Assembly: GCA_943788875.1 (NCBI GenBank)
Contig: CALSSA010000004.1
Location: 1-64,000, forward strand
DNA: 64,000 nucleotides
Source: an uncultured Pseudomonadales bacterium
Lineage (GTDB): Bacteria; Pseudomonadota; Gammaproteobacteria; Pseudomonadales; Porticoccaceae
Reading direction: 5' to 3'
Part shown: positions 6,412 through 26,230 of the stretch, one piece after another
How the letters are laid out: the number at the start of each line of letters is the position of its first letter
Numbering within the stretch: the first letter of the stretch is position 1
Position numbers and translations under genes: made by a program
The notes under the pieces: model-generated
Told to the model about the DNA's origin: nothing
Database searches by the model: none
The model's input: only the letters and a program-made list of their open reading frames with translations

Positions 6412-7041
6412 ATGAAATTCTACGATTGCACCACAGCCCCAAGCCCCCGACGAGTGCGAATATTCCTGGCTGAAAAAGGTATTGAAATTGAAACTGTGCA
6501 GGTGGACCTGTCCACCGGCGAGCATTTCTCCGACGCCTTTAAGGCGATTAACCCACTGATGGAAGTACCATTGCTGGAACTGGATGATGGCACTACCATC
6601 AGTCAGGTAGGCGCTATCTGTGGCTACCTTGAAGAAATTCACCCGGATAACCCTCTTCTCGGCCGCACACCAGTTGAGCGAGCGATGGTGGACTCATCCA
6701 ATCATCAGTTGCAGATGAATGGTTTTATGGCTGGAGCTGAAGCTTTCAGAAATGCGACGCCGGGATTTAAAAATCGCGCCATGCCCGGGCCCCATAACTA
6801 CAGGCAGATTCCAGAGCTAGCTGACCGCGGGCTGTTGCGACTGGATAACCTGTTTGCAGATCTAGATGCCCATTTTGCCAACAGTCAGTTTATTGTCGGC
6901 GACTATTATTCTATCGCCGACATTTCTGCCCTGTGCATTATCGATTTTGCCAAATGGGTTAAAAAGCGTATCCCTGAAGATTGCAGCAATCTTCAGCGCT
7001 GGTACGACCAGGTAAATAGCCGCCCCAGCGCCAAGGCCTAA
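6412..7041 (+). CDS. Glutathione S-transferase family protein
   Basis: Thioredoxin-fold N-term (MKFYDCTTAPSPRRVRIFLAEKG) and GST C-terminal domain. Confidence 0.9.
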   Translation: MKFYDCTTAPSPRRVRIFLAEKGIEIETVQVDLSTGEHFSDAFKAINPLMEVPLLELDDGTTISQVGAICGYLEEIHPDNPLLGRTPVERAMVDSSNHQLQMNGFMAGAEAFRNATPGFKNRAMPGPHNYRQIPELADRGLLRLDNLFADLDAHFANSQFIVGDYYSIADISALCIIDFAKWVKKRIPEDCSNLQRWYDQVNSRPSAKA

Positions 7042-10000
7042 GGTAAGGTATCACCGCTGGCTAGGGTAAATCCTGGTGCAGCGGTGATCGTATTACCATC
7101 GCTGTAACTCACTGCTATGTCCTGATCAGTAAAGTTATACACCACATAGTTGGTTACACCATCTTTCACAAACGCCAGTGCCGCTGGATAATCAGAGGTC
7201 AATTCACCGGTGCCGGTCTGTAACTGACCCAGGGCACTGAAGGTGTGAATCCAATGATAAGTATGAGCCTGTGTCTCTCCTGCTTCAGGGATATAGCTAT
7301 TGACACTGTTGTAGTCGGCAATGGCCGCATCCGCATCTACCATAGCCCAGAGGTTCCACCACAGGTCTCGCCACTGATCCTCTGGCAGCCCAGAGGGCTT
7401 GTTGCCGGCAGCTTCACTTAGACCCAGAGCCACATAATCTTGCATATAGTCGGCGTACTGACTGACATGCAAAATCAATGGACTTGAAGGCAAGCCTTGA
7501 ATGCCCAGAATATGGGCATAGGCGCCACTAAACCAGGTAGAGAACACAGCGCCATCACCCCAGATAATGGAAGTGGTGATCTTGTTATAGCCCGAAGGGA
7601 AGTTGTCGGCGTCGGCGCTGACATTATTGTAGCCATCAATATTATTCCAGTACTCCCAGTAAGCCGCTGAGGTGGAGGCATGCAGATACATACCTTTTTC
7701 AACCAGAGCCTCATTGCCTGTGGTCAGACCATACAGAATAATGGCACCATAGGCTGTGGCTGCTTCAGAAGTCGACTCGTTGTTGTTACCGCGGGTAAAG
7801 TTAACCCGTCCATCAGCCCAGGAGAAACCATTGGCCGGATCAAAGTTGCGCATTGATGGGAACATCTCATCATTGTCGTCGGCTGCATAATCACGAATCA
7901 GCAGGTCGATCATCGGACCGTATTGGTCTGCGCCACACCAAGCCACGTCAACACGACAGATCTCCGCGGCAGCACGGACAAAGTAACCGTAGTGGAAATG
8001 GTGGTCCGCCAGACGCTGGTGTGAGCCAAAGGACTCTTCAAAACCCAGCAAGGTATTCCAGTCTGCGTCGTAGGAGAAGTATTTATTGGTATCCAGCGCA
8101 CCATTACTATTAGCAGTAAACCAATCCGCCAACTCAGTCTTGAGCCATTCAATCAGCTGAGCCTGTTCTGCATCCATACCTGCAGACCCGGCAATGGCTG
8201 CCAGCTCTGCCACCTTGCCGTAGTTCTTACCCGCCCAATAGGTGTCAGTGCGGTCATTCCAGGCAGCTTCTCCCTGATCAATAAACTCAGTTACCAGAGA
8301 TTCCAGCGTACCCTGATCATAGGTGCCATCGATAGAGGGCATGGTTGGCAGCACACCAACAAAGGGCAGGTCATAGCTGAAGGCATCGGTCTGACTAAAC
8401 TTGACCATACCTCGAGCACTGCGCACCTTGTAATTGGACGTTGCTTGAGATGAGTTCTTCCAGTGCAGCGGATGCATACCAGCGATGGTTTCTATAGCAG
8501 CACCCTGATCATCCAGATAGGCATGACTAACGGTAACTGTATTGGTATTGCGATCAACGCTGTAATCAATATCCACAGACGCTACAACATTGCGCGCCTG
8601 GGCTTCAAAGAAGCTGATCATGTCACTGCTGGCATTCCCGGAACCGGTTGCAGGAAGATAGGCCAAAGTTAACTCTTTGCTGCTATTGGTCACGGTAATT
8701 TCATTGCCACTGATGTTGGAGTAGCTGGTACTACCTTCACCGGTAATCAGGAAATTATTGAGATTGCCAGCCACATTGGTCCAGATGCCCAGGCTATTAT
8801 TCTGATTATAGAAGGTACCTTTTTCACCACTATCTTCGCGGTATGTGCGCAGAACCAGATCGCCTTCATAGGCCTTAAAGTAGATATAGGGGGAACCATG
8901 TACAAAGGTGGCTTCCATTACATCTGAACTGCCAGACTTCCACATAACAGTCACAGAACCATCACTGTGATCCTTGAGGTAGGCTTCCAGATTAGCGTGT
9001 GCCGTATTGCCCACAGCAATACCATCGAACACCTCGACAAAAGGATCAGGGATCGCATACATAAAGCCATCGGTATAAAGACCCAATCCGCCAGGAATAC
9101 TTAGCACTCGCACACCTTTCTCAGTGACCCGAGCCATAATTGGATCCGGCGTGATATAGGCTGCCTGATCCGGGTTGCCTGTCTGCATCTCGCCAAGAAA
9201 TGGGATAGAGCCCCACCATTTGTGAGTTGGCGTTGGCTGCTCAGCTGCAGCACCAGTCAGATGGGGATACATCTGTATAGGTGTGCCAGTAGGAATGCCT
9301 GTAGCGGTGTTACAGCTGGCAATCGGAGGCTCGACCACACCTGCGTTGTAAATCCAGTTACCGTAGTCGTAAACACAGCGATAACTATCGGGGTTAATTC
9401 CGTCAGCAACAGAACCAGCGCCGTAGGCTGTAATCTCAAATGTGGTTGGATTCTCTGGGTCTACTGGTGGCTCAACGCCATCGGTGATTCCGGTAAAGCG
9501 CACATTATCAATTTGGTAAACCACACCAGGTGCTGTGTCGAATGCCGGGAAAAATACCAGAGGTACCGTAACACTGGATAAATTCAGATCACCACTGGCC
9601 GTCAATGTAGACATGGAGATGCTGACCGCTTCCCATTCGCCTGTAGCATTGATCCCTGAAACCGCTAGTTCGCCTGAGGTTGCAGAGGTGCTGGTCTCAA
9701 GTTTGATATAGAAACCACCAGATAAATTGGCCGCACCGGTTGCAATAACCTTGATATCAAATTCCAGCTGGCCATTAGCATAGCCACTTAAGTCAACTGC
9801 TCCACCAGGACCAACCACAATACCTGCATGACCAGCATTGCTGCTATAGCTCACTTCAAGCACGTCACCTTTGTCGCTGTCAGAGGCTACAGTCCAATCA
9901 ATACTGGGGCAGCTTTCTGTACCGGCGCTTTCATCAGTGCAGTCAGAGTAATCCACCCCGGAATCAAATGCTGAGAACTCGGCATTGCCACCCCAGATAT

Positions 10001-11714
10001 CAGCAACTACACCATCGGCCAAAACTGTCAGCGCATCGCCTCCGCCCAGCGGGGTGTCGTCATCCACATCAGCAATGCCGTCACCGTCGTCATCGGTATC
10101 TGCATTGTTACCGATATTGTCGCCATCTGTATCCAGGGTTTCATCGGCATTCAGAGGGAAAGCATCGTCACTGTCATTGACGCCATCGTTATCATCATCC
10201 GGATCGGCATTGTTGCCAATGTCATCATTGTCGTAGTCCAGTGTCTCACTGTCATCCAACGGAAAGGCGTCTGCACCATCAGCTACACCATCACCGTCGT
10301 CATCTGTATCTGCATTGTTACCTATGCTGTCGCCATCTGTATCCAGACTTTCGTCAGCATCGAGGGGGAAGGCATCGTCACTGTCAGCAATACCGTCACC
10401 ATCATCATCTGTATCATTTATATTAGGGGTTCCATCATTGTCGGTGTCGGTCTGGGAGCTGAACACTTCGTTATCGGCGAACAGAGCCCCAAGATCAGTT
10501 TCAGCAACAAAATCCTCCATTGCCATAACACCGGAGACCAGATCTTCCACTGCATCTTGCAATGCTGTCTGGGCCGTCTCAACAAAATCTGCAGCCTGCG
10601 CCGATGTCGGGTCTATGCCTTCACCAGCCAGCAACTCATTGATGCCTGCAATATTGGCAGAGACAGCGTCAACAACTGCAGCTGACACCGAGGGTAACGC
10701 TTCAGTCAAGACATCAGCCAAAACCGTATCCGACTGCAGATCAATGGCGCCATTGGCGACCGCGTCAGAGGCTATTGCCTCAGCTACAGCCTCAGCCACA
10801 GCACTGAGCTCGACCAGTGATCCATCATCCAGCAATGTCTGAGCAGTACTAATAAGGAGTCCAATTTGCTGGTTAGTACTCTGCAGGCTTTGCGCGTCTG
10901 TATCACCGGATTCAGCCAGCGCCCAAATATCCGTTGTCAGAAAGTCATCTACAGAGCCATTAATGCCCAGAGCGGTCAAAACTGCCGCTTTATCTTCGGG
11001 AGTTCCAGCGCTGGCAATTACCGAACTGATCGGTGTAACAGCAATATCTGCATCCGAATCTTCAGGCAGATCTGACATCAGAATCAGGTTCGGCATGACA
11101 ACACCGGTTTCAGTGTCTGTTCCGCCTCTGGTCATAATCTGTATTGAGCTAGAATCTGCAGGGGCCGGTATACGGAAATAACCCTGGGCATCTGAAGTGC
11201 CAGCAGACTCTCCTGCATTGGCTGCAGAGCCTCCAGAGTTAATAATATAGATTTCACTGCCAGACATAGGAGCGTCAATAACACGACCTTCGATGGCATT
11301 CAGCACTGTCACTACGACATCCTGGCTGTCACTGGCATTTTGGCTATCCGACAGCTCTACCGACAATTCATAATTATTGTCGCCATTGGCATCTGCAGGG
11401 GCCTCATAATCAGGTGCTGTCAAAAAGCTGATCACACCTGAGTTAGAAATACTGAACAGATCACTGTCCGATGAAGGAATTAAGCTGTAGGTAAGGGCTT
11501 GATTTTCTGGGTCTACGCCATTGGCCGTAGCCACCTCGACAGAGCCCTCAAGAACATCAACCTCTGCACTGATAGTTAGGCTGGGTGCCTGATTGACAGG
11601 CGAGGTATTGCCACCACCGCCGCTGTTATCGCTACCGCCACCTCCGCCGCCCCCGCAGGCTTGTAATAAAAGAACGAAACTGAAGGATAGAGCTGTATTT
11701 ACATTGCGACGCAT
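7038..11714 (-). CDS. Multidomain lipoprotein with GH81-type endo-beta-1,3-glucanase catalytic region, cadherin-like domain, thrombospondin type-3 Ca-binding repeats and a carbohydrate-binding-like domain
   Basis: Lipobox LLQACGGGGGGG; DTDGDNIGNNADTDDDGDGIAD repeats; GH81-like HKWWGSIPF...LPFVGVLPTMP...RLADHHFHYGYFVRAAAEI. Confidence 0.85.
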   Translation of the reverse strand: MRRNVNTALSFSFVLLLQACGGGGGGGSDNSGGGGNTSPVNQAPSLTISAEVDVLEGSVEVATANGVDPENQALTYSLIPSSDSDLFSISNSGVISFLTAPDYEAPADANGDNNYELSVELSDSQNASDSQDVVVTVLNAIEGRVIDAPMSGSEIYIINSGGSAANAGESAGTSDAQGYFRIPAPADSSSIQIMTRGGTDTETGVVMPNLILMSDLPEDSDADIAVTPISSVIASAGTPEDKAAVLTALGINGSVDDFLTTDIWALAESGDTDAQSLQSTNQQIGLLISTAQTLLDDGSLVELSAVAEAVAEAIASDAVANGAIDLQSDTVLADVLTEALPSVSAAVVDAVSANIAGINELLAGEGIDPTSAQAADFVETAQTALQDAVEDLVSGVMAMEDFVAETDLGALFADNEVFSSQTDTDNDGTPNINDTDDDGDGIADSDDAFPLDADESLDTDGDSIGNNADTDDDGDGVADGADAFPLDDSETLDYDNDDIGNNADPDDDNDGVNDSDDAFPLNADETLDTDGDNIGNNADTDDDGDGIADVDDDTPLGGGDALTVLADGVVADIWGGNAEFSAFDSGVDYSDCTDESAGTESCPSIDWTVASDSDKGDVLEVSYSSNAGHAGIVVGPGGAVDLSGYANGQLEFDIKVIATGAANLSGGFYIKLETSTSATSGELAVSGINATGEWEAVSISMSTLTASGDLNLSSVTVPLVFFPAFDTAPGVVYQIDNVRFTGITDGVEPPVDPENPTTFEITAYGAGSVADGINPDSYRCVYDYGNWIYNAGVVEPPIASCNTATGIPTGTPIQMYPHLTGAAAEQPTPTHKWWGSIPFLGEMQTGNPDQAAYITPDPIMARVTEKGVRVLSIPGGLGLYTDGFMYAIPDPFVEVFDGIAVGNTAHANLEAYLKDHSDGSVTVMWKSGSSDVMEATFVHGSPYIYFKAYEGDLVLRTYREDSGEKGTFYNQNNSLGIWTNVAGNLNNFLITGEGSTSYSNISGNEITVTNSSKELTLAYLPATGSGNASSDMISFFEAQARNVVASVDIDYSVDRNTNTVTVSHAYLDDQGAAIETIAGMHPLHWKNSSQATSNYKVRSARGMVKFSQTDAFSYDLPFVGVLPTMPSIDGTYDQGTLESLVTEFIDQGEAAWNDRTDTYWAGKNYGKVAELAAIAGSAGMDAEQAQLIEWLKTELADWFTANSNGALDTNKYFSYDADWNTLLGFEESFGSHQRLADHHFHYGYFVRAAAEICRVDVAWCGADQYGPMIDLLIRDYAADDNDEMFPSMRNFDPANGFSWADGRVNFTRGNNNESTSEAATAYGAIILYGLTTGNEALVEKGMYLHASTSAAYWEYWNNIDGYNNVSADADNFPSGYNKITTSIIWGDGAVFSTWFSGAYAHILGIQGLPSSPLILHVSQYADYMQDYVALGLSEAAGNKPSGLPEDQWRDLWWNLWAMVDADAAIADYNSVNSYIPEAGETQAHTYHWIHTFSALGQLQTGTGELTSDYPAALAFVKDGVTNYVVYNFTDQDIAVSYSDGNTITAAPGFTLASGDTLP

Positions 11715-11837: not shown

Positions 11838-11864
11838 TAAAAAAGACCCCTGCGAAGGGGCCTT
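11838..11864 (-). terminator. Intrinsic terminator after the TonB-dependent receptor
   Basis: Minus strand GGCCCCTTCGCAGGGGTCTTTTTT, a GC stem followed by a T tract. Confidence 0.75.
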
Positions 11865-11907: not shown

Positions 11908-14595
11908 TTAAAAGCTCCACTTTATATCAAACGCAACCATGGTACCGGGGCGCTCTTCGTGAGTAACCACTGTATCCTGTGTGATTTCAATCTTCTCATC
12001 AAGCAAGTTTTTCAGCTTGAGCTTTATCGTCAACTGGTCAGTGGGGTAATAGAAGTACGTCGCATCCAGCGCGTTGAAAGGCTGCTCATAGGCGTCAGGT
12101 GAACCGTTGCGCCCGGCAAAGTAGAGGCGCTCACCAAACACATTATAAATTAGCATGGCGCCATGTTTGCCATCTGCAGAGTCATAACCGAGCTGGAAGT
12201 TAACCGCATAATCAGATGCGCCAGACATGGGTCGCGTGGCATTGGTGGGCGCATCGGCGAACTCACCAGCAGTCAACTCGGAGTCAAGCATGGTCATATT
12301 ACCAGCGACAAAGAACGATTCCATATCAGTTCCCAGAAAGCCTAACCCTTTTAGCCATTCAAGCTCTAAACCGTACACAGTGGAGCTTTCCGCGTTGATA
12401 ATCTCTGTTGCCAGCGCTTCTTCAAATGCCGCCGCTTCAAAGAATTCGATCGGGTTCTGAATATCTTTGTAAAACAATGATGCCGTGAAGTTATCACCAT
12501 TTGAGAAGAACCACTCAGCACGCAAATCATAATTCTCAACCATCGCAGGAATTACATTGGCATTACCACTGACCCGACCACCGGTGATGGGATCGAGATA
12601 GCTGCTTGGAGTAATCTCACGCAGATCCGGGCGCACCAGCGTTTCACTGTAGGCAAAGCGCAGTTGGAAATCTTCCGCCCAGAAATCTGGCTTGATATAG
12701 GTAGCAGAGACCGAGGGATAAAAATCATCTTCTTTAAACACTGAGTCTAAAAGATCGTTTTCATCGCAGCTGATCGCACAGCCCTGATACTTGAGCGGAT
12801 TCCATGGAATACCCACCTGGTTGTAATCCTCCCAGCGGGCGCCCAATGTCAATCTCCATGTCTCATCCCAGAGAATATCCAAGGTACCATAGAGCGAAGT
12901 GTTGGTCAGAGCAGCTAAATAACTCTCTCCATTGCTACCAATCACAGCGATACTAAAGCCGTTGTCTGCATTAAGAATATTTTCATCGCTGAAAATCTCA
13001 GACACGGTTCCAGTGGAGCTCTGTGCCACAGCGGTCTCATCCGTTCCCAGACCAAATTCTAGCTGCTCATAGGTACGGGTCTTATTGGAGTAGCGGTAAC
13101 CGCCGTTCAGAGTCACATCAGCGTTTGAAAACATTAATGGTAGGCTTATATCGTAGCCATAGCTCTCTACATCATCATCGAGATCCGTAAAGCGAAAATC
13201 TCCTGCAGAGGCCGAAGGCTGAAGATTCTGCCCCATGACCTCAGCGGTTGCCGAATCGACACTGGTCTTGTAAAGAACAGTGGTTTGATTGGGAATATCC
13301 GTGCGTGAAATGGAATTGGAATAAAACCACTTAAACATTAACTCATCGAGCCATTCAAACCGGTCAAAGTTCAGTAAGTCTCGAGTGATGCCGCCAAAAC
13401 GGTGTTCACCGCGGATTTGATTGACGCTGAGGTTGCGCTCTTCAAACCTGGTACCGTACTCACGGAACCCCTTGCCATCGCTGAGCGGAAAGCTGGAGGT
13501 AAAGCTATCGGTAATAGAGGCTTTGTCATCCGTATTACGCAGGAAAATACTGGTAGTTTCTATACGATGATCGTCATACCAGCGCCAACCGAAACTGGCA
13601 TTACCAGTCATATTCACATTGCGAATCGATTCTATTTTTTTGGCGAAAATATCATCCGGGTCACCAAAGGAGCGGTCCATTGACTCCTTATTAGACCATT
13701 CGCTACCGTAGGCAGCGCCCAGCATAAAGCCAAGCTCCATGCCATTTTCCAGATAGAAATTATTGCCCACATTGGCTTCAAGGCTACCATTGGTACCTGC
13801 AGACTGCTCAGTGATATCTATATCTCTGTTTAGCAGCAATGCCAGATCACGGTTTATCGCCTGCGCATCGGCCAGAGTTTGAGTACCATCGCCCAGTTGA
13901 ATATTGTTGAGAATATCAATCGACCCCAGCGAACCGCGGTACTGGTCGACTCCCGCCATAAGTGCCGACGACAGAGCCCTTGAGCCATCATCAGTACCAA
14001 AGCTGTCGTCACTGCCACCTGTGTATGACAGCACATCACCATGGGTATCAATATTCTGCTTGGTACCTATCTCTACAGAAAACAGCAGCTGATCAGGAAT
14101 ACTGCGAGTACGAATATCGATCAAACCGCCACTAAAGGCCGCTGGCATTTCCGCAGAATAGCTCTTTTTAACCGCAATAGATTTCAAGATAGAGGTAGGA
14201 AAAATATCCAGAGGAATAACATTCCTGGTGAGATCAGGCGAAGGAATAACCGCACCATTTAATAATGAGTTGGAGTAGCGCTCACCCAACCCGCGGATAA
14301 AGACATATTTATCATCAACCAAAGTCACACCGGGCACACGGCGCAGGGCAGACGCAACATTAGAGTCACCAATGCGACCTATGGTTTCTGCATCAATAAT
14401 ATCTGCAACTACATCTGTTTCGAGTCGCTCTACGATAACATCGTCAGCGGCACTCTTAAGCTTGGCAAAGACAACCACTTCTTCGAGAACGGGTTCATCT
14501 GCAATACTTTTCATTTGCGCCAGTACAGAATCGCTCATACCCAGCAAGCTGGCAGCGATTATGGGCGTTCTTAATAATTTCATTTTACCTGTCAT
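11908..14595 (-). CDS. TonB-dependent receptor
   Basis: 895 aa; plug domain (SALRRVPGVTLVDDKYVFIRGLGERYSNSLLNGAVIPSPD) and C-terminal beta-barrel ending in F. Confidence 0.93.
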   Translation of the reverse strand: MTGKMKLLRTPIIAASLLGMSDSVLAQMKSIADEPVLEEVVVFAKLKSAADDVIVERLETDVVADIIDAETIGRIGDSNVASALRRVPGVTLVDDKYVFIRGLGERYSNSLLNGAVIPSPDLTRNVIPLDIFPTSILKSIAVKKSYSAEMPAAFSGGLIDIRTRSIPDQLLFSVEIGTKQNIDTHGDVLSYTGGSDDSFGTDDGSRALSSALMAGVDQYRGSLGSIDILNNIQLGDGTQTLADAQAINRDLALLLNRDIDITEQSAGTNGSLEANVGNNFYLENGMELGFMLGAAYGSEWSNKESMDRSFGDPDDIFAKKIESIRNVNMTGNASFGWRWYDDHRIETTSIFLRNTDDKASITDSFTSSFPLSDGKGFREYGTRFEERNLSVNQIRGEHRFGGITRDLLNFDRFEWLDELMFKWFYSNSISRTDIPNQTTVLYKTSVDSATAEVMGQNLQPSASAGDFRFTDLDDDVESYGYDISLPLMFSNADVTLNGGYRYSNKTRTYEQLEFGLGTDETAVAQSSTGTVSEIFSDENILNADNGFSIAVIGSNGESYLAALTNTSLYGTLDILWDETWRLTLGARWEDYNQVGIPWNPLKYQGCAISCDENDLLDSVFKEDDFYPSVSATYIKPDFWAEDFQLRFAYSETLVRPDLREITPSSYLDPITGGRVSGNANVIPAMVENYDLRAEWFFSNGDNFTASLFYKDIQNPIEFFEAAAFEEALATEIINAESSTVYGLELEWLKGLGFLGTDMESFFVAGNMTMLDSELTAGEFADAPTNATRPMSGASDYAVNFQLGYDSADGKHGAMLIYNVFGERLYFAGRNGSPDAYEQPFNALDATYFYYPTDQLTIKLKLKNLLDEKIEITQDTVVTHEERPGTMVAFDIKWSF

Positions 14596-14634
14596 CTGTA
14601 GACCTATAATGTTGGCAAGCGGTGAGAGTTGAAA

Positions 14635-14656
14635 AGGGTGCCGCTGTGGGACACCC
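14635..14656 (-). terminator. Hairpin between lipoprotein and TonB receptor genes, possible partial terminator
   Basis: GGGTGTCCCACAGCGGCACCC followed by TTTT on the minus strand; T tract on the other strand too. Confidence 0.5.
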
Positions 14657-14688
14657 TTTTTTTACCAGAAGCGTAATTCTCAAAAACC

Positions 14689-16332
14689 TCATTCAAACCA
14701 AAGCGGTTGAGCGCGGTTTCCTTCGTGCAGACCATAGGTCCAGCCAGCAGTCCAATCATTGTCAGCAGATACCGCACCGATAATGGCAGAACCTACAGGA
14801 GTTGGGATTGTGTCAGTACCTACAACCATATCTGCAGCTGGTACCGAGTAGAAACCATCAAGAATTACCAGGTCAGCGTTGGATGCAGCTGTAGGGTCGT
14901 CGCCAGCTTCGGCAGTTTGAAGCAGCAAGTTGCCACCAGCAGTTAACCAATCAGCAGTGGAAGTACCATTTGGCAAGCTATTACCTTTGGTCAGGTCCTG
15001 ACAGGCAATAATCGAAGCATCTACAACCAGGTCGCCATCTTGAGCTGCCTGCTGGCCTTCGTTATCCAGTCGGAAACACCAATTGTGGTCCGCATCGCTC
15101 AACAGTTCGTCACCGCTGTACGAGGAAGTTACGATAGCGTTTTGAATCGTTGGGAAATGAGCTTCTCGAATGCGCAGGCCCTGGCCTTCTTCGTGAGTAC
15201 CGCTTTCGTTGGCAGAGATAATGCAAGTCAGGTTTTTGATGGTTGCCTGGGAGTTCAGTCCACGGGCGATAAAGTCATCAATAGTTGCCTGGTCTTTGCT
15301 TGAGTAGCTGCCAATACCGTCAGACTCAACGCAGCGGTTGCCATCGTTCTCTGACTGAATAACCAGAGCATTAGTGATAGTGCCACGGTAGCCTTCATCA
15401 ATATCGATGGAGTCATCACGCACATAAACGGCAACATAGTTAGTAATGTCTACAGCGCCACCAAAGAACTCAATGCCGTCATCGTAAACACTATAGACTT
15501 CGAGATTCTCTACCATCGTGCCACTGCCTACGGCGTTAAATGCAATACCATTGAGCTCGTTACCAGGAGCAACTTCGGCACCAGTATGTTTAACGATCAT
15601 GTAGTTGATTACACCGGAATTATCTTCGTTGTTTGCACCACCATAATGGCTCTCACCAACGTCGGCTTTACCCTCTGATGCAACATGACAATCTGTTGTA
15701 GTCACGTTTGGGTATGTGCCAGTGTAAGAACATTTGTTAGTGACACCAAAGCCGTTAATAACCAAGCCGCCCCATTCGCCAACATCTTCAGCACCTACGG
15801 TGCCAAAAACTGCATCAGTTTGAGAGGTCAGAACGATCGGTGCTTCTGCAGTACCATTGGCACGCATCTGTGAACCGCGGTTGACTACCATAAAGTCGTC
15901 TGCACTGCGGAATGCCAGAGTAGCACCAGCCGCAATAGTCAGAACCGCCCCATCGCCACCTTCTGAAATGCCCGCAGTAGCCAGATCCGTATCAGAGCTA
16001 AAGTTTTCACCAACAACCAGGCTGCCTTCAAAAATATGGACGCCTTCACCAATGTTGGGAATTGCCAGATCGAAGGTGAGAGGATTATCGATATCGACAA
16101 AGCCCTTGGAATAAACACAGTTAGTACCGTCGAATGAACCCTGGGATACAGTGCCGGCCAATGTGTATGAGGCACAGCTCATTTCTGTATTGCCAGTACC
16201 TTCGTTAGTAATATTAGTAACAGTGTCACCAATATCAGTTTGATTGCTCGGCGCGATATTTATATCGCCACCACCACAGCCTGTCAGGGCTACTGCTACT
16301 GCGCTTGATGCGAGTAATTTCTTTAATGACAT
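14689..16332 (-). CDS. Putative surface lipoprotein, right-handed beta-helix-like, paired with TonB receptor
   Basis: Lipobox VALTGCGGGDIN; repeated hydrophobic/Gly/Asn motifs (GEWGGLVINGFG, GVINYMIVKHTGAEVAPGNELNGIAFNAVGSGT). Confidence 0.7.
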   Translation of the reverse strand: MSLKKLLASSAVAVALTGCGGGDINIAPSNQTDIGDTVTNITNEGTGNTEMSCASYTLAGTVSQGSFDGTNCVYSKGFVDIDNPLTFDLAIPNIGEGVHIFEGSLVVGENFSSDTDLATAGISEGGDGAVLTIAAGATLAFRSADDFMVVNRGSQMRANGTAEAPIVLTSQTDAVFGTVGAEDVGEWGGLVINGFGVTNKCSYTGTYPNVTTTDCHVASEGKADVGESHYGGANNEDNSGVINYMIVKHTGAEVAPGNELNGIAFNAVGSGTMVENLEVYSVYDDGIEFFGGAVDITNYVAVYVRDDSIDIDEGYRGTITNALVIQSENDGNRCVESDGIGSYSSKDQATIDDFIARGLNSQATIKNLTCIISANESGTHEEGQGLRIREAHFPTIQNAIVTSSYSGDELLSDADHNWCFRLDNEGQQAAQDGDLVVDASIIACQDLTKGNSLPNGTSTADWLTAGGNLLLQTAEAGDDPTAASNADLVILDGFYSVPAADMVVGTDTIPTPVGSAIIGAVSADNDWTAGWTYGLHEGNRAQPLWFE

Positions 16333-16392
16333 GGTTAACTCCCGTTAATTATTGGATCGAATATCTATCGGCAATAAAATTAACAGTGATTA

Positions 16393-16432
16393 ATGACGGT
16401 AAAATGAAAGTTCTATGACAAATCCATGACAG
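16393..16432 (-). promoter_or_regulatory. Tandem PhoB-binding array (four half-sites)
   Basis: Minus strand CTGTCAT-GGAT-TTGTCAT-AGAA-CTTTCAT-TTTA-CCGTCAT: four CTGTCAT-like heptamers at exact 11-bp periodicity, ~60 bp upstream of the lipoprotein start. Confidence 0.85.
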
Positions 16433-16486: not shown

Positions 16487-16513
16487 AAAAAAAAGGGCGC
16501 TGAATGCACCCTT
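16487..16513 (-). terminator. Terminator of the pst-phoU operon
   Basis: Minus strand AAGGGTGCATTCAGCGCCCTTTTTTTT. Confidence 0.75.
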
Positions 16514-16533
16514 CTTTTAATTGTGAAACCTTA

Positions 16534-17214
16534 TTACTGATGGCGGATATCTTTGCCCTTAACCACAAAAACAATCTGCTCACAGAGGTTTTTGGCATGG
16601 TCACCAATACGCTCCAGAGAGCGGATAATCCATAGAACATTGATCACGCGGCTAATGCTGCGCGGGTCTTCCATCATATAGGTGACCAGTTCACGCAGTG
16701 CTGTTTTGTAATCCAGATCAATCTGCTTGTCTTCTTCCAGTGTGCGCATGGCTGCATCAACATCAAAGCGCGCAAAGGCATCCAGAGCGTTTGCCAGCAT
16801 ACGAGATACCGACTGGCCCATATGACGAATCTCTGTATAGCCCTCTGAAGAGCCGCCCTGCTCGGCCAAAATAACCGCATGATTGGCGATTTTCTTAGCT
16901 TCGTCACCAATACGCTCCAGATCATTGACCGCTTTGGTAACCATCATAACCAAGCGCAAATCACTGGCAGCGGGCTGGCGTCTGGCGATAATTAAAATAC
17001 AGGCTTCATCTATATCCACTTCCATTTCATCAACGTGCTGCTCTTCTGCAATCACGTCTTCTGCCAGTTTACTGTCAGCATCACTGATTGCCCGAATAGC
17101 ATTTTGTAGCTGTTGCTCTACCTTGCCACCCATTTCCATCAGGCGAGTACGAATCTCTTCCAGCTCTTCGTCGAACTGCTTCATGATATGGTTTTCAAAT
17201 GACATCTTGGCCAT
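16534..17214 (-). CDS. phoU: Phosphate signalling complex protein PhoU
   Basis: PhoU repeats; adjacent to pstB. Likely start MAKMSFENHI at 17214. Confidence 0.95.
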   Translation of the reverse strand: MAKMSFENHIMKQFDEELEEIRTRLMEMGGKVEQQLQNAIRAISDADSKLAEDVIAEEQHVDEMEVDIDEACILIIARRQPAASDLRLVMMVTKAVNDLERIGDEAKKIANHAVILAEQGGSSEGYTEIRHMGQSVSRMLANALDAFARFDVDAAMRTLEEDKQIDLDYKTALRELVTYMMEDPRSISRVINVLWIIRSLERIGDHAKNLCEQIVFVVKGKDIRHQ

Positions 17215-17227
17215 AATAATTCTCCGT

Positions 17228-18106
17228 TTAACCAAATCGACCGGTAATATAAGCTTCAGTCAGCTTATGTTCCGGCATGGTAAATACTTTCTCCGTGGGA
17301 TTAACCTCTACCAGCTTGCCCAGGTGGAAATAGGCTGTGCGATCAGAGACTCGTGCCGCCTGTTGCATACTGTGGGTCACAATCGCAATAGTAAAATTCT
17401 GGCTTAGCTCTTCAATCAACTCTTCAATCTTGGCTGTGGCAATGGGGTCCAGTGCCGAGCAGGGCTCATCCATCAAAATAACTTCCGGGCTAACCGCAAT
17501 TGCTCTTGCTATACAAAGTCTCTGCTGCTGACCACCGGACAGTCCTGTACCAGGCTGATGCAGTCGCTCTTTGACTTCTTCCCAGAGACTGGCTCTCTTT
17601 AAACTGTTTTCAACAATCTCGTCCAAATCAACTCTGGTATCTGCCAGACCATGAATTTTTGGCCCATAGGCCACATTTTCATAAATAGACTTGGGGAACG
17701 GGTTGGGCTTTTGAAATACCATTCCCACTCTGGCGCGCAATTCCACAACATCCAGTTTCGGCGAATAGAGATTTTCACCATCCATACATATCTCGCCTTC
17801 GACGCGACAGCCTTCCACAGTATCGTTCATACGATTGAGAGTACGCAAAAACGTCGACTTGCCACAGCCGGATGGACCAATCATGGCAATCACTTCATTT
17901 TGTGCGATATCGATACTCACATCATGGATGGCCTGCTTATCGCTGTAGAAAACATTGATATTGCGCATGGTCATCTTAGGCTTGTCAGTAAAGCTCTGGC
18001 CAACAGTAACCTCTTCTGCTGAAATCTGCAGATCCTGGTCCGCGGCCTTCTTTTTGGCCCCAGCGGTTTTCTTTGGCTTTTTAGCAACTGTAGCTGCTTT
18101 ACTCAT
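17228..18106 (-). CDS. pstB: Phosphate ABC transporter ATP-binding protein
   Basis: Walker [10 protein letters not shown], signature [16 protein letters not shown], Walker B VILMDEP. Confidence 0.97.
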
Positions 18107-18127
18107 AATCTAATCCTTTTTACCTTT

Positions 18128-19408
18128 CTACCAACGGCGCTCTAAACGCTTTCGCAGCCAAACGGCTGATGTGTTCATAATAATCAAAAAGCTTAACAGC
18201 ACCATAATGGCTGCAGAGGTCTTTTCAATAAATGCTCGTTCTGGACTGTCTGCCCAAAGAAAAATCTGTACAGGCAACACAGTAGCCGGATCGGTAAAGC
18301 CTGCCGGAATATCCACAATAAAAGCGACCATACCAATCATCAACAGCGGCGCTGTTTCACCCAGAGCCTGAGCCATCCCAATAATGGCGCCGGTCAACAT
18401 CCCCGGCAGTGCCAGTGGCAGTACATGGTGCAGTACTGTCTGGTATTTGGACGCTCCCATGCCCAGAGCTGCCTCCCGTATAGATGGCGGGACTGACTTA
18501 ATCGCCGCACGGCTGGTGATAATAATCGTCGGCAATGTCATCAGGGTTAAAACCAACCCACCCACCACTGGTACCGAGCGCGGCACATGAAAGAAATTAA
18601 TAAAGATCGCCAGACCCAGCAAACCAAAAATAATCGAGGGTACCGCCGCCAGATTATTAATATTGACCTCAATAAAGTCAGTCCAGCGGTTTTTCGGGGC
18701 AAACTCTTCCAGATAGATTGCCGCAGAAACACCAATGGGGAATGACAGCATCAATGTCAGGACCAGGGTGAAAAATGAACCCATAATGGCGCCGCGAATA
18801 CCGGCCTGCTCGGGCTCCCGGGAATCACCGCGGGTAAACAGGTTGCTGTTGAATTGCAGACGAATATTGCCTTCATTGTGAAGCTGCTCAATCCAGGCCA
18901 TCTGATTGTCCGCCATACGGGCGGCATAAGGTTCGCCGTCCAGCCACGTTTTGTAATAGGTGTCTATATCATCGTCGGCGAGAATCCAGATTGACTCAGT
19001 CTGACCCAGCAACAGAGGGTTGGCGACCAGGCGATCTTTGAGGTCAAAACCAGCGCCATTACTCAGTAAAGCGTAGAGCTTGCGCTTATCCCGACGTCCG
19101 GAGACATCGGTAAACTTGCTGCGCAGAGCGCTCTTGGGTACAGCATCCCAGTTGCCATCGGCAAGCTGAGCTGGGTCGGTCATATTGGCGACACCAATAA
19201 TATCCTGATCATAATGCACATCAAGCTGGATATAGGTCACCCGGAAAGCGCCGTGGCCCTTGCTGATAATATCGGTAAACAACACGATCACTGCAGCCAG
19301 ACCAATCAGAATAGCGATGCGCCCATACCAGCGAAATCTGGTTTCAGCGCGATTGCGTCTGGTTAAAGACTGCTTAATTTTGTCTAAATTATCCACGGGC
19401 TTACTCAT
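18128..19408 (-). CDS. pstA: Phosphate ABC transporter permease (long N-terminal domain)
   Basis: Permease core GVSAAIYLEEFAPKNRW...EAALGMGASKYQTVLHHVLPLALPG. Start likely 19408, overlapping the pstC stop. Confidence 0.95.
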   Translation of the reverse strand: MSKPVDNLDKIKQSLTRRNRAETRFRWYGRIAILIGLAAVIVLFTDIISKGHGAFRVTYIQLDVHYDQDIIGVANMTDPAQLADGNWDAVPKSALRSKFTDVSGRRDKRKLYALLSNGAGFDLKDRLVANPLLLGQTESIWILADDDIDTYYKTWLDGEPYAARMADNQMAWIEQLHNEGNIRLQFNSNLFTRGDSREPEQAGIRGAIMGSFFTLVLTLMLSFPIGVSAAIYLEEFAPKNRWTDFIEVNINNLAAVPSIIFGLLGLAIFINFFHVPRSVPVVGGLVLTLMTLPTIIITSRAAIKSVPPSIREAALGMGASKYQTVLHHVLPLALPGMLTGAIIGMAQALGETAPLLMIGMVAFIVDIPAGFTDPATVLPVQIFLWADSPERAFIEKTSAAIMVLLSFLIIMNTSAVWLRKRLERRW

Positions 19409-20789
19409 ACTGCTCCCTATACTTCTTAACAATATGCAGGGCAAAAATATTCAATAACAGGGTGACGGTAAACAGCATCAACCCAAGGGCAAAGGCCGCC
19501 AGGGTTTTGGGGCTGTCAAACTCCTGGTCACCGGTTAGCAAGGTCACAATTTGCACTGTCACTGTGGTCACAGATTCAAGTGGATTGGCAGTTAATTTTG
19601 CCGCCATACCAGCAGCCATAACCACAATCATGGTTTCACCAATCGCCCGCGACACAGCCAACATAATACCGCCGACAATACCGGGCAGAGCCGCAGGAAT
19701 AATCACCCGGCGCACAGTCTCCGACTGGGTAGCTCCCATTGCCAGAGAGCCATCGCGCATGGACTGAGGTACCGCTGTGATCACATCGTCAGCCAGTGAG
19801 GAGATAAACGGAATAATCATCACCCCCATCACGCCACCAGCGGCCAGCGCACTCTCGGAGGATACTGAAAGGCCAAAACTAGTGCCCAGCTCTCGCAAAA
19901 ATGGCGCCACGGTCAATGCGGCGAAAAAGCCGTAAACCACTGTTGGAATACCAGCCAGCACTTCCAGTGCCGGCTTGGCAAAGGCGCGTACTGTCTTACT
20001 GGCATATTCGGCCAGATAAATCGCTGACATAAGACCGACAGGCACGGCAACGACCATGGCTACAGCTGAGACTAATAGGGTGCCTACAAAAAGAGGTACT
20101 GCACCAAAACTACCGGATGAGCCAACCTGGTCTTCACGGATCGCAGTTTGCGGACTCCATTCCAGACCAAAGACAAACTCATGGACAGGCACAGACCTAA
20201 AAAACTGTATCGATTCAAACAGAACCGAAAGCACAATCCCCAACGTGGTGAAAATCGCCAGACAGGCACAGGCCAGCAGCAGGTTCTGCATAACCTTTTC
20301 AACCAGGGGGCGGGCTCTAAACTGGGGGTTGATTCTCGACCAACCAAAGAGCAGGCCAATAACGGTCAGGCACAGCATCAATGCTGTTAATGACCAGCGA
20401 GAAACCACTTTTAGCTGAGTCATATAGTCAGCGGCGGCAAGTAATGCATCACTCTGCCCCTGACGGCCAAGAATGCCCTCGGCAATATTGCTGATCTTGT
20501 TTAGTTGCAGGTTGTAAGTGGCGAGGCTGGTATTGCCTAATTGATCCGCCATTGAGCTCATTACCAGACTGTTGATCAACGGCTCGTCAAAGATCATCCA
20601 CAGGGAGAGCAAGATTAGCGAGGGCAGCGCACACCAGAGTGCAGTGTGGAACCCGTAGTAAGAGGGAAGAGAATGCAGATTGCGAATTCCGCCCAGTGGT
20701 TTGGCAAGGGCCAGAGAACGGCCACGGCCAATGTAGAAGGCAAAAATGCCCAAAGCAAGTATCAGAATGAGAATATTAGTCGCTTGCAT
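19401..20789 (-). CDS. pstC: Phosphate ABC transporter permease (long N-terminal domain)
   Basis: Permease core GLMSAIYLAEYASKTVRAFAKPALEVLAGIPTVVYGFFA...SRAIGETMIV. Confidence 0.95.
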   Translation of the reverse strand: MQATNILILILALGIFAFYIGRGRSLALAKPLGGIRNLHSLPSYYGFHTALWCALPSLILLSLWMIFDEPLINSLVMSSMADQLGNTSLATYNLQLNKISNIAEGILGRQGQSDALLAAADYMTQLKVVSRWSLTALMLCLTVIGLLFGWSRINPQFRARPLVEKVMQNLLLACACLAIFTTLGIVLSVLFESIQFFRSVPVHEFVFGLEWSPQTAIREDQVGSSGSFGAVPLFVGTLLVSAVAMVVAVPVGLMSAIYLAEYASKTVRAFAKPALEVLAGIPTVVYGFFAALTVAPFLRELGTSFGLSVSSESALAAGGVMGVMIIPFISSLADDVITAVPQSMRDGSLAMGATQSETVRRVIIPAALPGIVGGIMLAVSRAIGETMIVVMAAGMAAKLTANPLESVTTVTVQIVTLLTGDQEFDSPKTLAAFALGLMLFTVTLLLNIFALHIVKKYREQYE

Positions 20790-20899: not shown

Positions 20900-21958
20900 T
20901 TATTTCAATGCTTCATTGCCTGTCATTGGGGTCAATGACCTTGTGCTTTGGGCCATGGCACGACGCTCCTTAACTGGCAGAGGAATCATGCCCTTCTCGG
21001 CCAGATAACCATCTTCACCCCAGGCGCGCTCACTGGTGAACTCATTGAGGTAGCCTTTGATACCGGGCACTACGCCAACATGTGCTTTCTTGACATAGAA
21101 GAACAATGGACGCGAGATCGGGTAAGACTTGTCAGCGATGGAGTCAAAGTTTGGCTCAACAGATTCGATCATTGCACCCTGAACCCTGTCAGCATTCTGG
21201 TCCAGAAAGCTAAAGCCAAACACACCCAGTGCAGCAGGGTTAGCCTGAAGCTTTTGTACGATCAGATTATCGTTTTCGCCAGCTTCAATATATTTGCCAT
21301 CTTCACGGATCGTGTGACACAGAGCCTTGTAAGCGCTTTTGTTAGTTTTCTTCAGAGCCGCAATCCAGCCGATTTTCTTACAGCCACCTTCGAGGCCCAG
21401 TTCAGCAAACGCATCCCGCGTACCGGAAGTCGGCGGGGGACCCATAACTTCGATAGCGGTGTCTGGCAATGCTGGATTGACATCTTTCCAGGTTTGATAA
21501 GGGTTATCCATCAACTCACCTTCAACAGCAGCAGGAACCTCAGCGGCCAGCGCGAGGAAGATATCCTTGCGGCTCAGCTGCATTGGCGCTGCCTCAACAG
21601 AGTTAGCAATAACAATACCGTCGTAGCCAATGTGAACTTCGATCACGTCGGTCACGCCATTGGTCTGGCACTTCTTGAATTCTGACATCTTTATGCGACG
21701 TGATGAGTTAGTGATATCCGGGTAGTTGGTACCCACACCAGAGCAAAACAGCTTCATACCGCCACCAGAACCAGTTGATTCAATCTTTGGTGTTGGCTTG
21801 CCGCTTGAACGGCCATAGCGCTCGGCAACTACAGTTGAAAATGGGTATACAGTTGAAGAACCTACTACTTCAATGCTATCCCGGGCCATTGCCGCAGATG
21901 TTGCTGTAATAGCAGCCACGGTCAGTAACAGGGCTGGTAAAATAGTACGTTGGGTCAT
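20900..21958 (-). CDS. pstS: Phosphate-binding periplasmic protein
   Basis: VVGSSTVYPFSTVVAERYGR...ESTGSGGGMKLFCSGVG...TSGTRDAF; signal peptide. Confidence 0.93.
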   Translation of the reverse strand: MTQRTILPALLLTVAAITATSAAMARDSIEVVGSSTVYPFSTVVAERYGRSSGKPTPKIESTGSGGGMKLFCSGVGTNYPDITNSSRRIKMSEFKKCQTNGVTDVIEVHIGYDGIVIANSVEAAPMQLSRKDIFLALAAEVPAAVEGELMDNPYQTWKDVNPALPDTAIEVMGPPPTSGTRDAFAELGLEGGCKKIGWIAALKKTNKSAYKALCHTIREDGKYIEAGENDNLIVQKLQANPAALGVFGFSFLDQNADRVQGAMIESVEPNFDSIADKSYPISRPLFFYVKKAHVGVVPGIKGYLNEFTSERAWGEDGYLAEKGMIPLPVKERRAMAQSTRSLTPMTGNEALK

Positions 21959-22072: not shown

Positions 22073-22090
22073 ATGTCACAATACTGTCAT
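22073..22090 (+). promoter_or_regulatory. PhoB box for the porin gene
   Basis: ATGTCAC-AATA-CTGTCAT, then 10 bp to TATTAT (-10). Confidence 0.9.
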
Positions 22091-22185: not shown

Positions 22186-23232
22186 ATGAACAAGTTACTA
22201 CTCTCTTCGGCCATCGCATCCACAGTGTGCTTTACGGGTCACAGCTTTGCGGCTGGCCCTATTGACGGCAAGGTTTACGGTAAGGTTAATGCTTCTATTG
22301 TCAATAATGACAGTGGCTCAAGCGATGAATGGAAACTAAACAGCAATGCATCTCGTGTTGGCGTTAAAGGAAAGACTGAAATTTCAGATGGGCTTTACGC
22401 TATCTATAAAGCAGAATTTGAAATGTTTGTTGATGACGGCAGCAAAGACAGCAGCAAAACCAGGTGCGCTGCAGTATTAGATCAAGACGGTGAAGAAACA
22501 GGCAATGAAGTATGTCTGACGGATTCGGATAAAAGCACCTTTTCTCAACGAAATATTATGGCTGGAATAAAAGGTGACTTCGGCACCATTTGGGCAGGCA
22601 AGCATGACTCCCCCACCAAACTGGCACAGAACAAGATTGACCTGTTTAACGATCTTGAAGGTGATATTAAAAATACCTTTGAAGGTGAAAACCGCGTATC
22701 TAATATTGTGGCCTACACCTCACCGAAGGTTAATGGTTTCTCTGCCACCGTCGCCATGATTCCTGGTGAAGGTTCTGATTTTGATGAAGACGGAAATGAC
22801 GACACCGGCCTGGCCGACGGCATCTCCTATTCCATTAGCTATGATATGGACAACCTGTATATAGCAGTAGCTGGTGATCAGGACGTAGACAAGCAGGACC
22901 TACTGCGCGTTGTTGCCCAGTACAAAATGGACGCATTAAAGCTTGGCTTTATGTATCAGCAGAATGAAGATAACCTTAATAGCAAAGATGAATCTGGTTA
23001 CTTTATCAGCGCGGCCTACAAGATGGACAAGACCACATTGAAGGCTCAGTACGGCACAATTGAAGATGATGTCGACGGCGACGAAGAGGAAACTCTGTCT
23101 CTGGGTGCGGATTACAAGATGGCTAAAAACACCAAGGTCTATGTATTCTATACTGACAACACAGATTCTGAAGTGGGCTCAGCCGACGACGAAGATTCTT
23201 CGTTTGGTGTAGGTATGGAACATAAGTTCTAA
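22186..23232 (+). CDS. Trimeric general-type porin, predicted Pho-regulated
   Basis: Signal peptide, GKVYGKVNASIVN start, SRVGVKGKTEISDGLYAIYKAEFE, C-terminal FGVGMEHKF. Confidence 0.9.
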   Translation: MNKLLLSSAIASTVCFTGHSFAAGPIDGKVYGKVNASIVNNDSGSSDEWKLNSNASRVGVKGKTEISDGLYAIYKAEFEMFVDDGSKDSSKTRCAAVLDQDGEETGNEVCLTDSDKSTFSQRNIMAGIKGDFGTIWAGKHDSPTKLAQNKIDLFNDLEGDIKNTFEGENRVSNIVAYTSPKVNGFSATVAMIPGEGSDFDEDGNDDTGLADGISYSISYDMDNLYIAVAGDQDVDKQDLLRVVAQYKMDALKLGFMYQQNEDNLNSKDESGYFISAAYKMDKTTLKAQYGTIEDDVDGDEEETLSLGADYKMAKNTKVYVFYTDNTDSEVGSADDEDSSFGVGMEHKF

Positions 23233-24214: not shown

Positions 24215-25492
24215 CTAGGCGGATACCAGAGGCAATCGACAGACAAACCTGGATCCATGACCCAGGCGACTGCTAATGGTCAGGTCTCCACCACAGCGAT
24301 TGAGACTGTGCTTTACAATAGCCAGTCCCAGACCCGTGCCACCGGTGGCGGAGTTGCGGCTGCTGTCGCCGCGGTAAAAGCGCTCGGTCAGCCGCGGCAC
24401 TTCTGCAGGGTCTATGCCGACGCCATCATCCTGAATACTAATACTGATATGGTCTGAGTACTGCTCAACGACCACATTAATGGCAGCGCCTTTGGGGTTG
24501 TGGCGCACGGCATTGAAGACAATATTACCCAGGGCACTGCGCATGCTGTTGCCCTCTGAGTTAACCGCTAGGATCGCTGCACAATCTAGGCTCAGGCTGT
24601 GAAGACCACCACTTAATATCTCCGCTTCGGCAATAATATTGGTCAGTAGATCGTGCAGATTGACGGGCTCAAGCTCGGCCTCCTTGCCGTCCGCCTCCAA
24701 TCTGGACAGCAAGATCAAATCGTCGGCCAGCGCCTGCATTCTATTGACCTGATCGGCCATCTGGCCGAATGCACGATTGACCACAGCGTTGTTATCGGGA
24801 CTGTCCTGCAGGGTTTCTATATAGCCGCGCATCACTGTCAATGGCGTGCGCAATTCATGGGAGACATTGCCCACAAACTCTTTGCGCATCTCTTCCAGAC
24901 TGTTGAGGCGGGTAATATCGGTGATCACCAGGACAATTTCATCGTCGCCAAAATACGAGGCTGCAAATTTTAATAGCCGCCCTGCCTGAATCGATGATGG
25001 TAACTTGACCGCCCCCTGAAAGTCAGCCTGGTTGATATATTCAACAAATTCGGGGTCACGTATCAGATTCATAATAGCGCTGCCTCGATCCGAAGACCGC
25101 AGTCCCAAAAGGCTGGCAGCGGAGCTATTCCACCAGTCCAGAGACAGGTCGCTGCGCAGGACTAAAATCCCTTCGTCCAAGGCTTCAGTGAGCCGGGAAA
25201 CTCGATTGATAGTGCGGCGCATCTTTTCTTGAGTACGGCGATGACGTCGCCTCTGACGATTTAATGTGTCGCTTATCTCACCCCAGACACCATCGGCATC
25301 CGGCGGAATGCCGCGCATACCTTTGTCGATCCAGCTGAACAGCAATGAGATGATGCGGAAGGTCCAGATAACATAAAGGCCCACACCACAGAGGATAATT
25401 TCAAGGGGATAACCCAGACTCCAACCAAAAAACAGCGAAAACAGCCCAACCAGAACTATACGCCATATCTCTGTATGCATTCCCGGTCGCAA
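24215..25492 (-). CDS. phoR: Phosphate regulon sensor histidine kinase
   Basis: HAMP/PAS region, FVGNVSHELRTPLTVMRGYIETL H-box, GTGLGLAIVKH; next to phoB. Confidence 0.93.
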   Translation of the reverse strand: MRPGMHTEIWRIVLVGLFSLFFGWSLGYPLEIILCGVGLYVIWTFRIISLLFSWIDKGMRGIPPDADGVWGEISDTLNRQRRRHRRTQEKMRRTINRVSRLTEALDEGILVLRSDLSLDWWNSSAASLLGLRSSDRGSAIMNLIRDPEFVEYINQADFQGAVKLPSSIQAGRLLKFAASYFGDDEIVLVITDITRLNSLEEMRKEFVGNVSHELRTPLTVMRGYIETLQDSPDNNAVVNRAFGQMADQVNRMQALADDLILLSRLEADGKEAELEPVNLHDLLTNIIAEAEILSGGLHSLSLDCAAILAVNSEGNSMRSALGNIVFNAVRHNPKGAAINVVVEQYSDHISISIQDDGVGIDPAEVPRLTERFYRGDSSRNSATGGTGLGLAIVKHSLNRCGGDLTISSRLGHGSRFVCRLPLVSA

Positions 25493-25507
25493 TGGATGAG
25501 TGCCTTT

Positions 25508-26230
25508 TTAGCCATTTTGCAGATGAGTTGAGAAACGGTACCCCGAACCCCGCACAGTCTGCACATAGTTCTCATGGCCTGCAACTGAAATTGCTTTGCG
25601 CAATCGTCTGATATGAACATCCACCGTCCGCTCGTCTAAATAAACGTTGCCACCCCAGACATAGTCGAGAATCTGGTCTCTGGAATAGACGCGCTCTTGG
25701 TGGGTCAAAAAAAACTGAAGAAGACGGTACTCAGTAGGACCCAAATTAATATACTCGCCACTGATACTGACGCGGTGACTCTGGGGGTCAAAGTGCATCT
25801 CTCCAACATTGATTACATCTTTTAGCTCTTCACGACCAATGCGGCGCATCACGGCTTTAACCCGAGAAATCAGCTCCCGCGGAGAAAATGGTTTGGGGAT
25901 ATAGTCATCCGCACCGGCGTCGAGCCCGGAAATCTTGCTATCTTCCTCTGCTTTGGCAGTAAGCATTATTACGGGGATTTTTTCTGTGAGTTCATCACGC
26001 TTTAGACGGCGCAGCAGCTCCAAACCAGTAGTGCCGGGCATCATCCAGTCCAGCAGTACCAGATCCGGTTGCCTGTCAATTATAGAGGCGTGAGCCTGCT
26101 GGGCATTTTCTGCCTGCAATACATTGAAGTCCGCAGCCTCTAAGGCAATGGACAGCATATCTCGAATTGCCGCTTCGTCATCGACCAATAAAATCGTATG
26201 CTTGGGCATAACATTGACCCTGTCATCCAC
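25508..26230 (-). CDS. phoB: Phosphate regulon response regulator
   Basis: Receiver (LVLLDWMMPGTTGLELLRRLKRD) + OmpR-type C-terminal (DERTVDVHIRRLRKAI). True start may be 26209 (MPKHTILLVDD). Confidence 0.95.
   Translation of the reverse strand: MDDRVNVMPKHTILLVDDEAAIRDMLSIALEAADFNVLQAENAQQAHASIIDRQPDLVLLDWMMPGTTGLELLRRLKRDELTEKIPVIMLTAKAEEDSKISGLDAGADDYIPKPFSPRELISRVKAVMRRIGREELKDVINVGEMHFDPQSHRVSISGEYINLGPTEYRLLQFFLTHQERVYSRDQILDYVWGGNVYLDERTVDVHIRRLRKAISVAGHENYVQTVRGSGYRFSTHLQNG

Follow-up and report, generated by a model that had tools for sequence, protein, structure and literature searches.

The window, a 64,000-nucleotide stretch of DNA from a marine SAR92-type bacterium, carries the genes of the PhoB-PhoR regulatory pair, a porin, the Pst transporter and PhoU, and directly behind phoU a lipoprotein gene followed by the gene of a TonB-dependent receptor in the same orientation (Table 1). 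The original prediction had described this lipoprotein and receptor as a Pho-regulated pair for phosphorus acquisition at the outer membrane, and both genes are found as it had described them. Beyond the receptor lies a gene of the GH81 family (endo-beta-1,3-glucanases), whose product is itself a lipoprotein and carries added domains.

Table 1. Features of the lipoprotein-receptor locus and its neighbours in the 64,000-nucleotide window
Feature	Position	Strand	Basis or remark
GH81 (endo-beta-1,3-glucanase family) lipoprotein	7038..11714	-	Pfam PF17652; regarded as its own transcription unit
Terminator at the end of the lipoprotein-receptor unit, ahead of GH81	11843..11864	-	Hairpin
TonB-dependent receptor, 895 aa	11908..14595	-	Plug and beta-barrel; nearest NCBIfam TIGR01782, under its cut-off
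Hairpin then TTTT between lipoprotein and receptor genes	14632..14660 (approx.)	-	RNA fold; candidate partial terminator
ElpS-like lipoprotein, 547 aa	14689..16332	-	Lipobox LTGC(19); one right-handed parallel beta-helix domain (model); mature pI ~4.05
TGTTAAT, -10-like element, candidate promoter	16379..16385	-	~8 nt past last half-site; TGTTAA invariant in seven aligned promoters
PhoB-type half-site array, n=4, 11-bp spacing	16393..16432	-	Sequence match, shuffles, phase kept in six orthologues
Half-site CTGTCAT	16432-16426	-
Half-site TTGTCAT	16421-16415	-
Half-site CTTTCAT	16410-16404	-
Half-site CCGTCAT	16399-16393	-
Terminator after phoU	16487..16518	-	Strong hairpin and T-run; separates pair from pst operon
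phoU	16534..17235	-	TIGR02135, 245 bits
pstB, pstA, pstC	17228..20789	-	pstC by Pfam; pstA, pstB by position and gene order
pstS	20900..21958	-	Two to three half-sites upstream
Porin	22186..23232	+	Two PhoB-type half-sites at 22073-22090
phoR and phoB	24215..26230	-	Pfam; half-sites upstream of phoB

Central to the locus is the array of four CTGTCAT-like half-sites, which are separated by the spacers GGAT, AGAA and TTTA in an exact 11-bp register and lie, as originally claimed, between the phoU terminator and the start codon of the lipoprotein gene at position 16332. Against four CTGTCAT half-sites the summed match is 25/28. When the 201-bp intergenic region was shuffled 20,000 times under a first-order Markov model, no shuffle reached this score and the best four-site sum was 20; fifteen shuffles of the whole window likewise gave a best sum of 20. 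No other four-site array occurs within the window, and the half-sites elsewhere in it are all weaker (two good and one weak at pstS, two at the porin, and three, one of them weak, at phoB), in keeping with the claim that the array surpasses the sites of pstS. Genome-wide, the two-site consensus CTGTCATNNNNCTGTCAT is matched with one mismatch at three places, the pair at 16415-16432 among them. Of the other two-half-site matches in the genome, six were inspected; these fall within or at the edges of open reading frames and were therefore not counted as members of the regulon. Among them are near-identical half-site-like sequences at a duplicated 498-aa/385-aa gene pair (G000 C14:26084-26112 and C2:7385-7402; loci L003 and L007).

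Six orthologous promoters, including that of the SAR92 strain HTCC2207 (L081), keep the GTCA cores in the same 11-bp phase at about 100 nt 5' of the start codon, while their spacers and the DNA further upstream have diverged. The retention of this phase and of TGTTAA amid changed surroundings is the pattern expected of a functional operator, in which TGTTAAT would serve as the promoter element and the array as the predicted binding site of PhoB. Direct repeats of the PhoB box with an 11-bp period stand upstream of the putative promoter, as is usual for the Pho regulon, and, judged from sequence, the arrangement appears unusually clear.

The boundaries of the unit are marked as well. Terminators after phoU and before GH81 delimit the lipoprotein and receptor genes as a predicted PhoB unit of their own, and in three related loci (L035, L036 and L044) a similar GC hairpin with a T-run precedes GH81 at the corresponding position. 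The hairpin between the two genes could possibly act as a partial terminator, in which case the receptor may be expressed at a lower level than the lipoprotein. Taken with the linkage of homologous pairs to pst or phoBR genes in other genera and the published Pi-induction of relatives, both described below, the array, its conserved footprint and these boundaries make Pho control of the unit well supported.

The lipoprotein carries a signal sequence with a lipobox, MSLKKLLASSAVAVALTGC, whose C19 is nearly invariant among relatives. Searches of Pfam and NCBIfam returned no match for this protein, and a sequence search of the PDB returned no significant one. The AlphaFold2 model is confident (pLDDT 88.4) and consists of many short beta-strands, from which the fold is read as a right-handed parallel beta-helix. 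Foldseek gave no significant match of the model to the PDB (best E 0.017); the weak matches were all beta-helix proteins, namely enzymes that act on polysaccharides, and this result supports the predicted beta-helix class only. The strong acidity of the protein and its invariant residues, which include the acidic set D284, D306, D310, E336 and D338, do not favour direct binding of an anion unless a metal bridges the two. For the receptor, the nearest solved structures are transporters of siderophores, haem or metals at 10-14% identity, generic TonB-dependent receptors that yield no usable clue to its substrate.

Relatives and published statements place the pair in a known kind, the ElpS-type pairing of a lipoprotein with a TonB-dependent receptor. 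The lipoprotein can be aligned with alphaproteobacterial relatives whose genes share the ElpS layout and its synteny with T2SS genes, and with those at 80 genome loci, and it is on these relatives that its homology to the ElpS family rests; against the T2SS-linked relatives in Sphingomonas, the identity is 39% over 259 aa for the lipoprotein (E 4e-39) and 25% for the receptor (E 3e-53). ElpS of Caulobacter crescentus (Cc0170) is a surface-exposed outer-membrane lipoprotein induced by Pi starvation, its gene adjoins the TonB-dependent receptor Cc0171 and T2SS genes, and its homologues are widespread, with examples in Shewanella and Bacteroides and syntenic ones in Sphingomonas and Hyphomonas (PMC2996285). 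The authors suggested a role for Cc0171 in phosphate uptake, and reported that it is constitutive and that intracellular phosphate was unchanged on a shift to poor medium (PMC2996285). Apart from an antibiotic study in which Cc0171 was among several receptors expressed, literature searches turned up no functional result for it. More generally, the PhoB regulon of Caulobacter includes various TonB receptors, to which the uptake of alternative phosphate donors is ascribed (PMC11208175). Like ElpS and Cc0171, the pair described here joins a lipoprotein to an adjacent TonB receptor and has a predicted link to Pi starvation; unlike them, it has pstSCAB-phoU and no T2SS genes for neighbours, and both of its genes lie behind one PhoB array whereas Cc0171 is reported to be constitutive.

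Several other systems share parts of this design. In Flavobacterium johnsoniae, the lipoproteins FI-FIII and the neighbouring TonB-dependent transporters are strongly induced by Pi depletion, FII and its transporter lie in a phoBR cluster, and the three proteins, 31-36% identical to the Caulobacter protein, were related by the authors to ElpS and predicted to target organic phosphorus (PMC8115612). FI, FII and FIII, together with PUSIII and PUSIV, resemble the present pair in placing a Pi-linked lipoprotein next to such a transporter, a likeness drawn from their descriptions; they differ in that the host of FI-FIII belongs to the Bacteroidota and that PUSIII carries a putative phosphodiesterase, a gene that is absent beside the pair in the window. 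SusCD and the Pi-induced PusCD are similar in outline, as a receptor with its cognate lipoprotein, unlike which the lipoprotein described here is a beta-helix in its model and lacks the Pfam match that would place it in the SusD family. TbpA-TbpB follows the same two-part logic of a receptor and a surface lipoprotein, with a receptor similarity that amounts to the general fold of TonB-dependent receptors. The fold of the TbpB lipoprotein differs from that of the lipoprotein in the window. The proposal that this is a Pho-regulated uptake pair is partly supported: the Pho control has stood, and the candidate is not a new one, as the kind was already described with ElpS/Cc0171 (PMC2996285) and with FI/FII and their transporters (PMC8115612), for which the respective authors proposed a part in mobilising phosphate.

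What is new is the placement of such a pair directly behind phoU with a four-site array of its own, and its exchange as a cassette, with two versions only ~27% identical sharing one slot within a single genus. The content of the slot after phoU varies among the genomes of the genus. Five other genomes carry the same pair, with lipoproteins 87-90% identical, and seven others carry the second version, in which the order is reversed, with a receptor (~26% identical) followed by a two-domain lipoprotein (~27% identical), and in which arrays of three to five sites stand before the first gene. Two genomes show a receptor after phoU and then the end of the contig, and in the remaining ones the slot holds GH81, an M20 peptidase or nothing; given this variable content, the pair behaves like a cassette that is exchanged at the pst locus. 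At L082 and at L039 (G007, one of the five genomes with the same pair), an intact lipoprotein gene stands beside a receptor gene broken into two frames, by decay or by sequencing error. An M20-family peptidase of 481-498 aa follows either phoU or the pair at L054, L057 and L039, with no convincing array of Pho half-sites before it at these three loci. In two small-genome relatives (L062 and L063), a third type of receptor follows phoU, and the contigs end before any lipoprotein.

Beyond the genus, a scan of GTDB genomes returned at least 501 relatives of the lipoprotein, from which the best 80 were kept; these loci are the closest relatives and hence a biased sample. In 76 of these best 80, the lipoprotein gene has a TonB-dependent receptor gene next to it in the same orientation. 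In 33 there are pho or pst genes no more than 10 kb away, and these loci come from Rheinheimera, Arsukibacterium, Alishewanella, Alteromonas, Glaciecola, Salinimonas, Aliidiomarina and other genera. A half-site score of at least 2 was found upstream of 52% of the pairs at the best 80 loci as against 5% of the 827 other open reading frames present there (Mann-Whitney p 7e-27, an optimistic value because the sequences are related). For 79 pairs, the distances among the lipoproteins co-vary with those among the receptors (Mantel r 0.855, with none of 2,000 permutations reaching it), a correlation to which shared ancestry contributes. In an even class-wide sample, the family occurs in 9 of 140 genomes, the pairing with a receptor persists and some members have half-sites upstream; in only one of the nine, the genome of the window, does it lie less than 20 kb from phoU, and in one other the distance is ~22 kb; linkage to pst is therefore not a rule of the family. 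Co-occurrence of the pair with pho or pst genes across genomes, a point raised originally for pst, holds for a part of the closest loci and fades in the class-wide sample.

The likeliest function, in which we place moderate confidence, is that an ElpS-type pair, induced by PhoB and energised by TonB, captures a ligand that contains phosphorus. In cells starved of Pi, binding of phospho-PhoB to the four half-sites would switch on both genes separately from pstSCAB-phoU. From its anchor in the outer membrane, the acidic beta-helix lipoprotein would face outward and present or process the ligand, and the cognate receptor, presumably in a physical complex with it, would import the ligand with the energy of TonB to feed the periplasmic phosphatases and the Pst transporter. 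Regulation and partnership in this scheme are supported by the conserved operator-like array, the unit boundaries, the family membership, the pairing of the genes, the co-variation of the proteins and the published Pi-induction of relatives; the binding of PhoB, the surface location, the complex, the phosphorus in the ligand and its import by the pair in the window are inferred. Capture of phosphate or of a phosphorus ester by active transport, as first proposed, is a plausible hypothesis.

Part of this evidence could be read in another way, in that the lipoprotein might mainly activate or display surface or secreted phosphatases, perhaps after a type II-secreted protease has released it, while the receptor acts as a partner in sensing or recycling and not in phosphorus import. 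Overproduction of ElpS in Caulobacter raises extracellular alkaline phosphatase activity although ElpS itself is no phosphatase, and ElpS requires the T2SS for its release (PMC2996285). In Sphingomonas, Indioceanicola, Henriciella and UBA5109, T2SS genes are found next to homologous pairs, with the order phoB-phoR-lipoprotein-receptor-gspE-gspF at one locus (L084), and the present genome holds two gspE genes (encoding the T2SS ATPase) over the family cut-off. However, T2SS genes are absent near the locus in the window, and the near-universal pairing and co-variation with a receptor suggest transport beyond the activation of phosphatases, so that we regard this role as rather unlikely to be the main one. 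A metal complex for phosphatases such as PhoX, imported by the pair under Pi starvation via an acidic, possibly Ca2+-binding face of the helix, is far less probable. It would suit the invariant acidic residues and the siderophore, haem and metal transporters nearest to the receptor, but those matches reflect the general fold, and no metal-related neighbour genes were seen.

The neighbouring GH81 gene invites a further explanation, in which the receptor takes up beta-1,3-glucan fragments released by this enzyme, with Pho control as a consequence of how regulation is wired or of the nutrient status during laminarin-rich blooms. Most genomes of the genus that carry the pair have GH81 after it; in the genus, 9 genomes have both, 2 the pair only, 1-2 GH81 only and 7-8 neither (Fisher p 0.005-0.02, a value that ignores relatedness), and the weak fold matches of the lipoprotein are to polysaccharide-acting proteins. 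On the other side, the terminator noted above, here and at the three related loci, would keep the receptor out of any common transcription unit with a glucan enzyme, no PhoB half-sites were found upstream of GH81, the pair occurs without GH81 (L038, L039) and GH81 without the pair (L059), and homologous pairs outside the genus have pho/pst, ExbBD-TonB or T2SS genes as their neighbours. A laminarin receptor was therefore rejected as the main explanation, and glucan uptake in any form appears unlikely; the genomic case for it, which had been named as able to overturn the original prediction, is weakened by the separate GH81 unit without a Pho box, yet the co-occurrence remains above expectation.

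Should capture of a phosphorus-containing ligand prove correct, a conserved PhoB-controlled pair in abundant ocean bacteria would constitute a route to phosphorus in phosphorus-poor water. Attention usually goes to porins and Pst, at the expense of energised uptake across the outer membrane. A broader possibility, to which we give somewhat less than an even chance, is that beta-helix lipoproteins and their cognate TonB receptors form a widespread Pho-regulated two-part importer for a specific phosphorus macromolecule or ester in Proteobacteria and Bacteroidota, with ligands that are specific to clades, which would be the reason for the exchange of pairs as cassettes at the pst locus. The layout of the locus is clean, with one array, two genes and flanking terminators, and some genomes naturally have the cassette while others lack it, so that the role of ElpS-type pairs becomes directly testable.

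Finally, the homologous loci vary in their composition. The lipoproteins of relatives have one, two or three helix domains, and some loci (L099-L103, L109, L118, L124 and others) carry their own DUF3450-ExbB-ExbB-ExbD-TonB-TPR cluster, which is perhaps a dedicated energising unit for the pair. A gene for a 2OG-Fe(II) oxygenase stands between pstS and a three-domain lipoprotein at L072 (5760-6551) and at several Alteromonas-type loci. A marine-type ElpS-like pair also occurs in a metagenome-assembled genome titled Klebsiella pneumoniae (L093, CAMAVY010000138.1), a bin that is probably mislabelled or contaminated.
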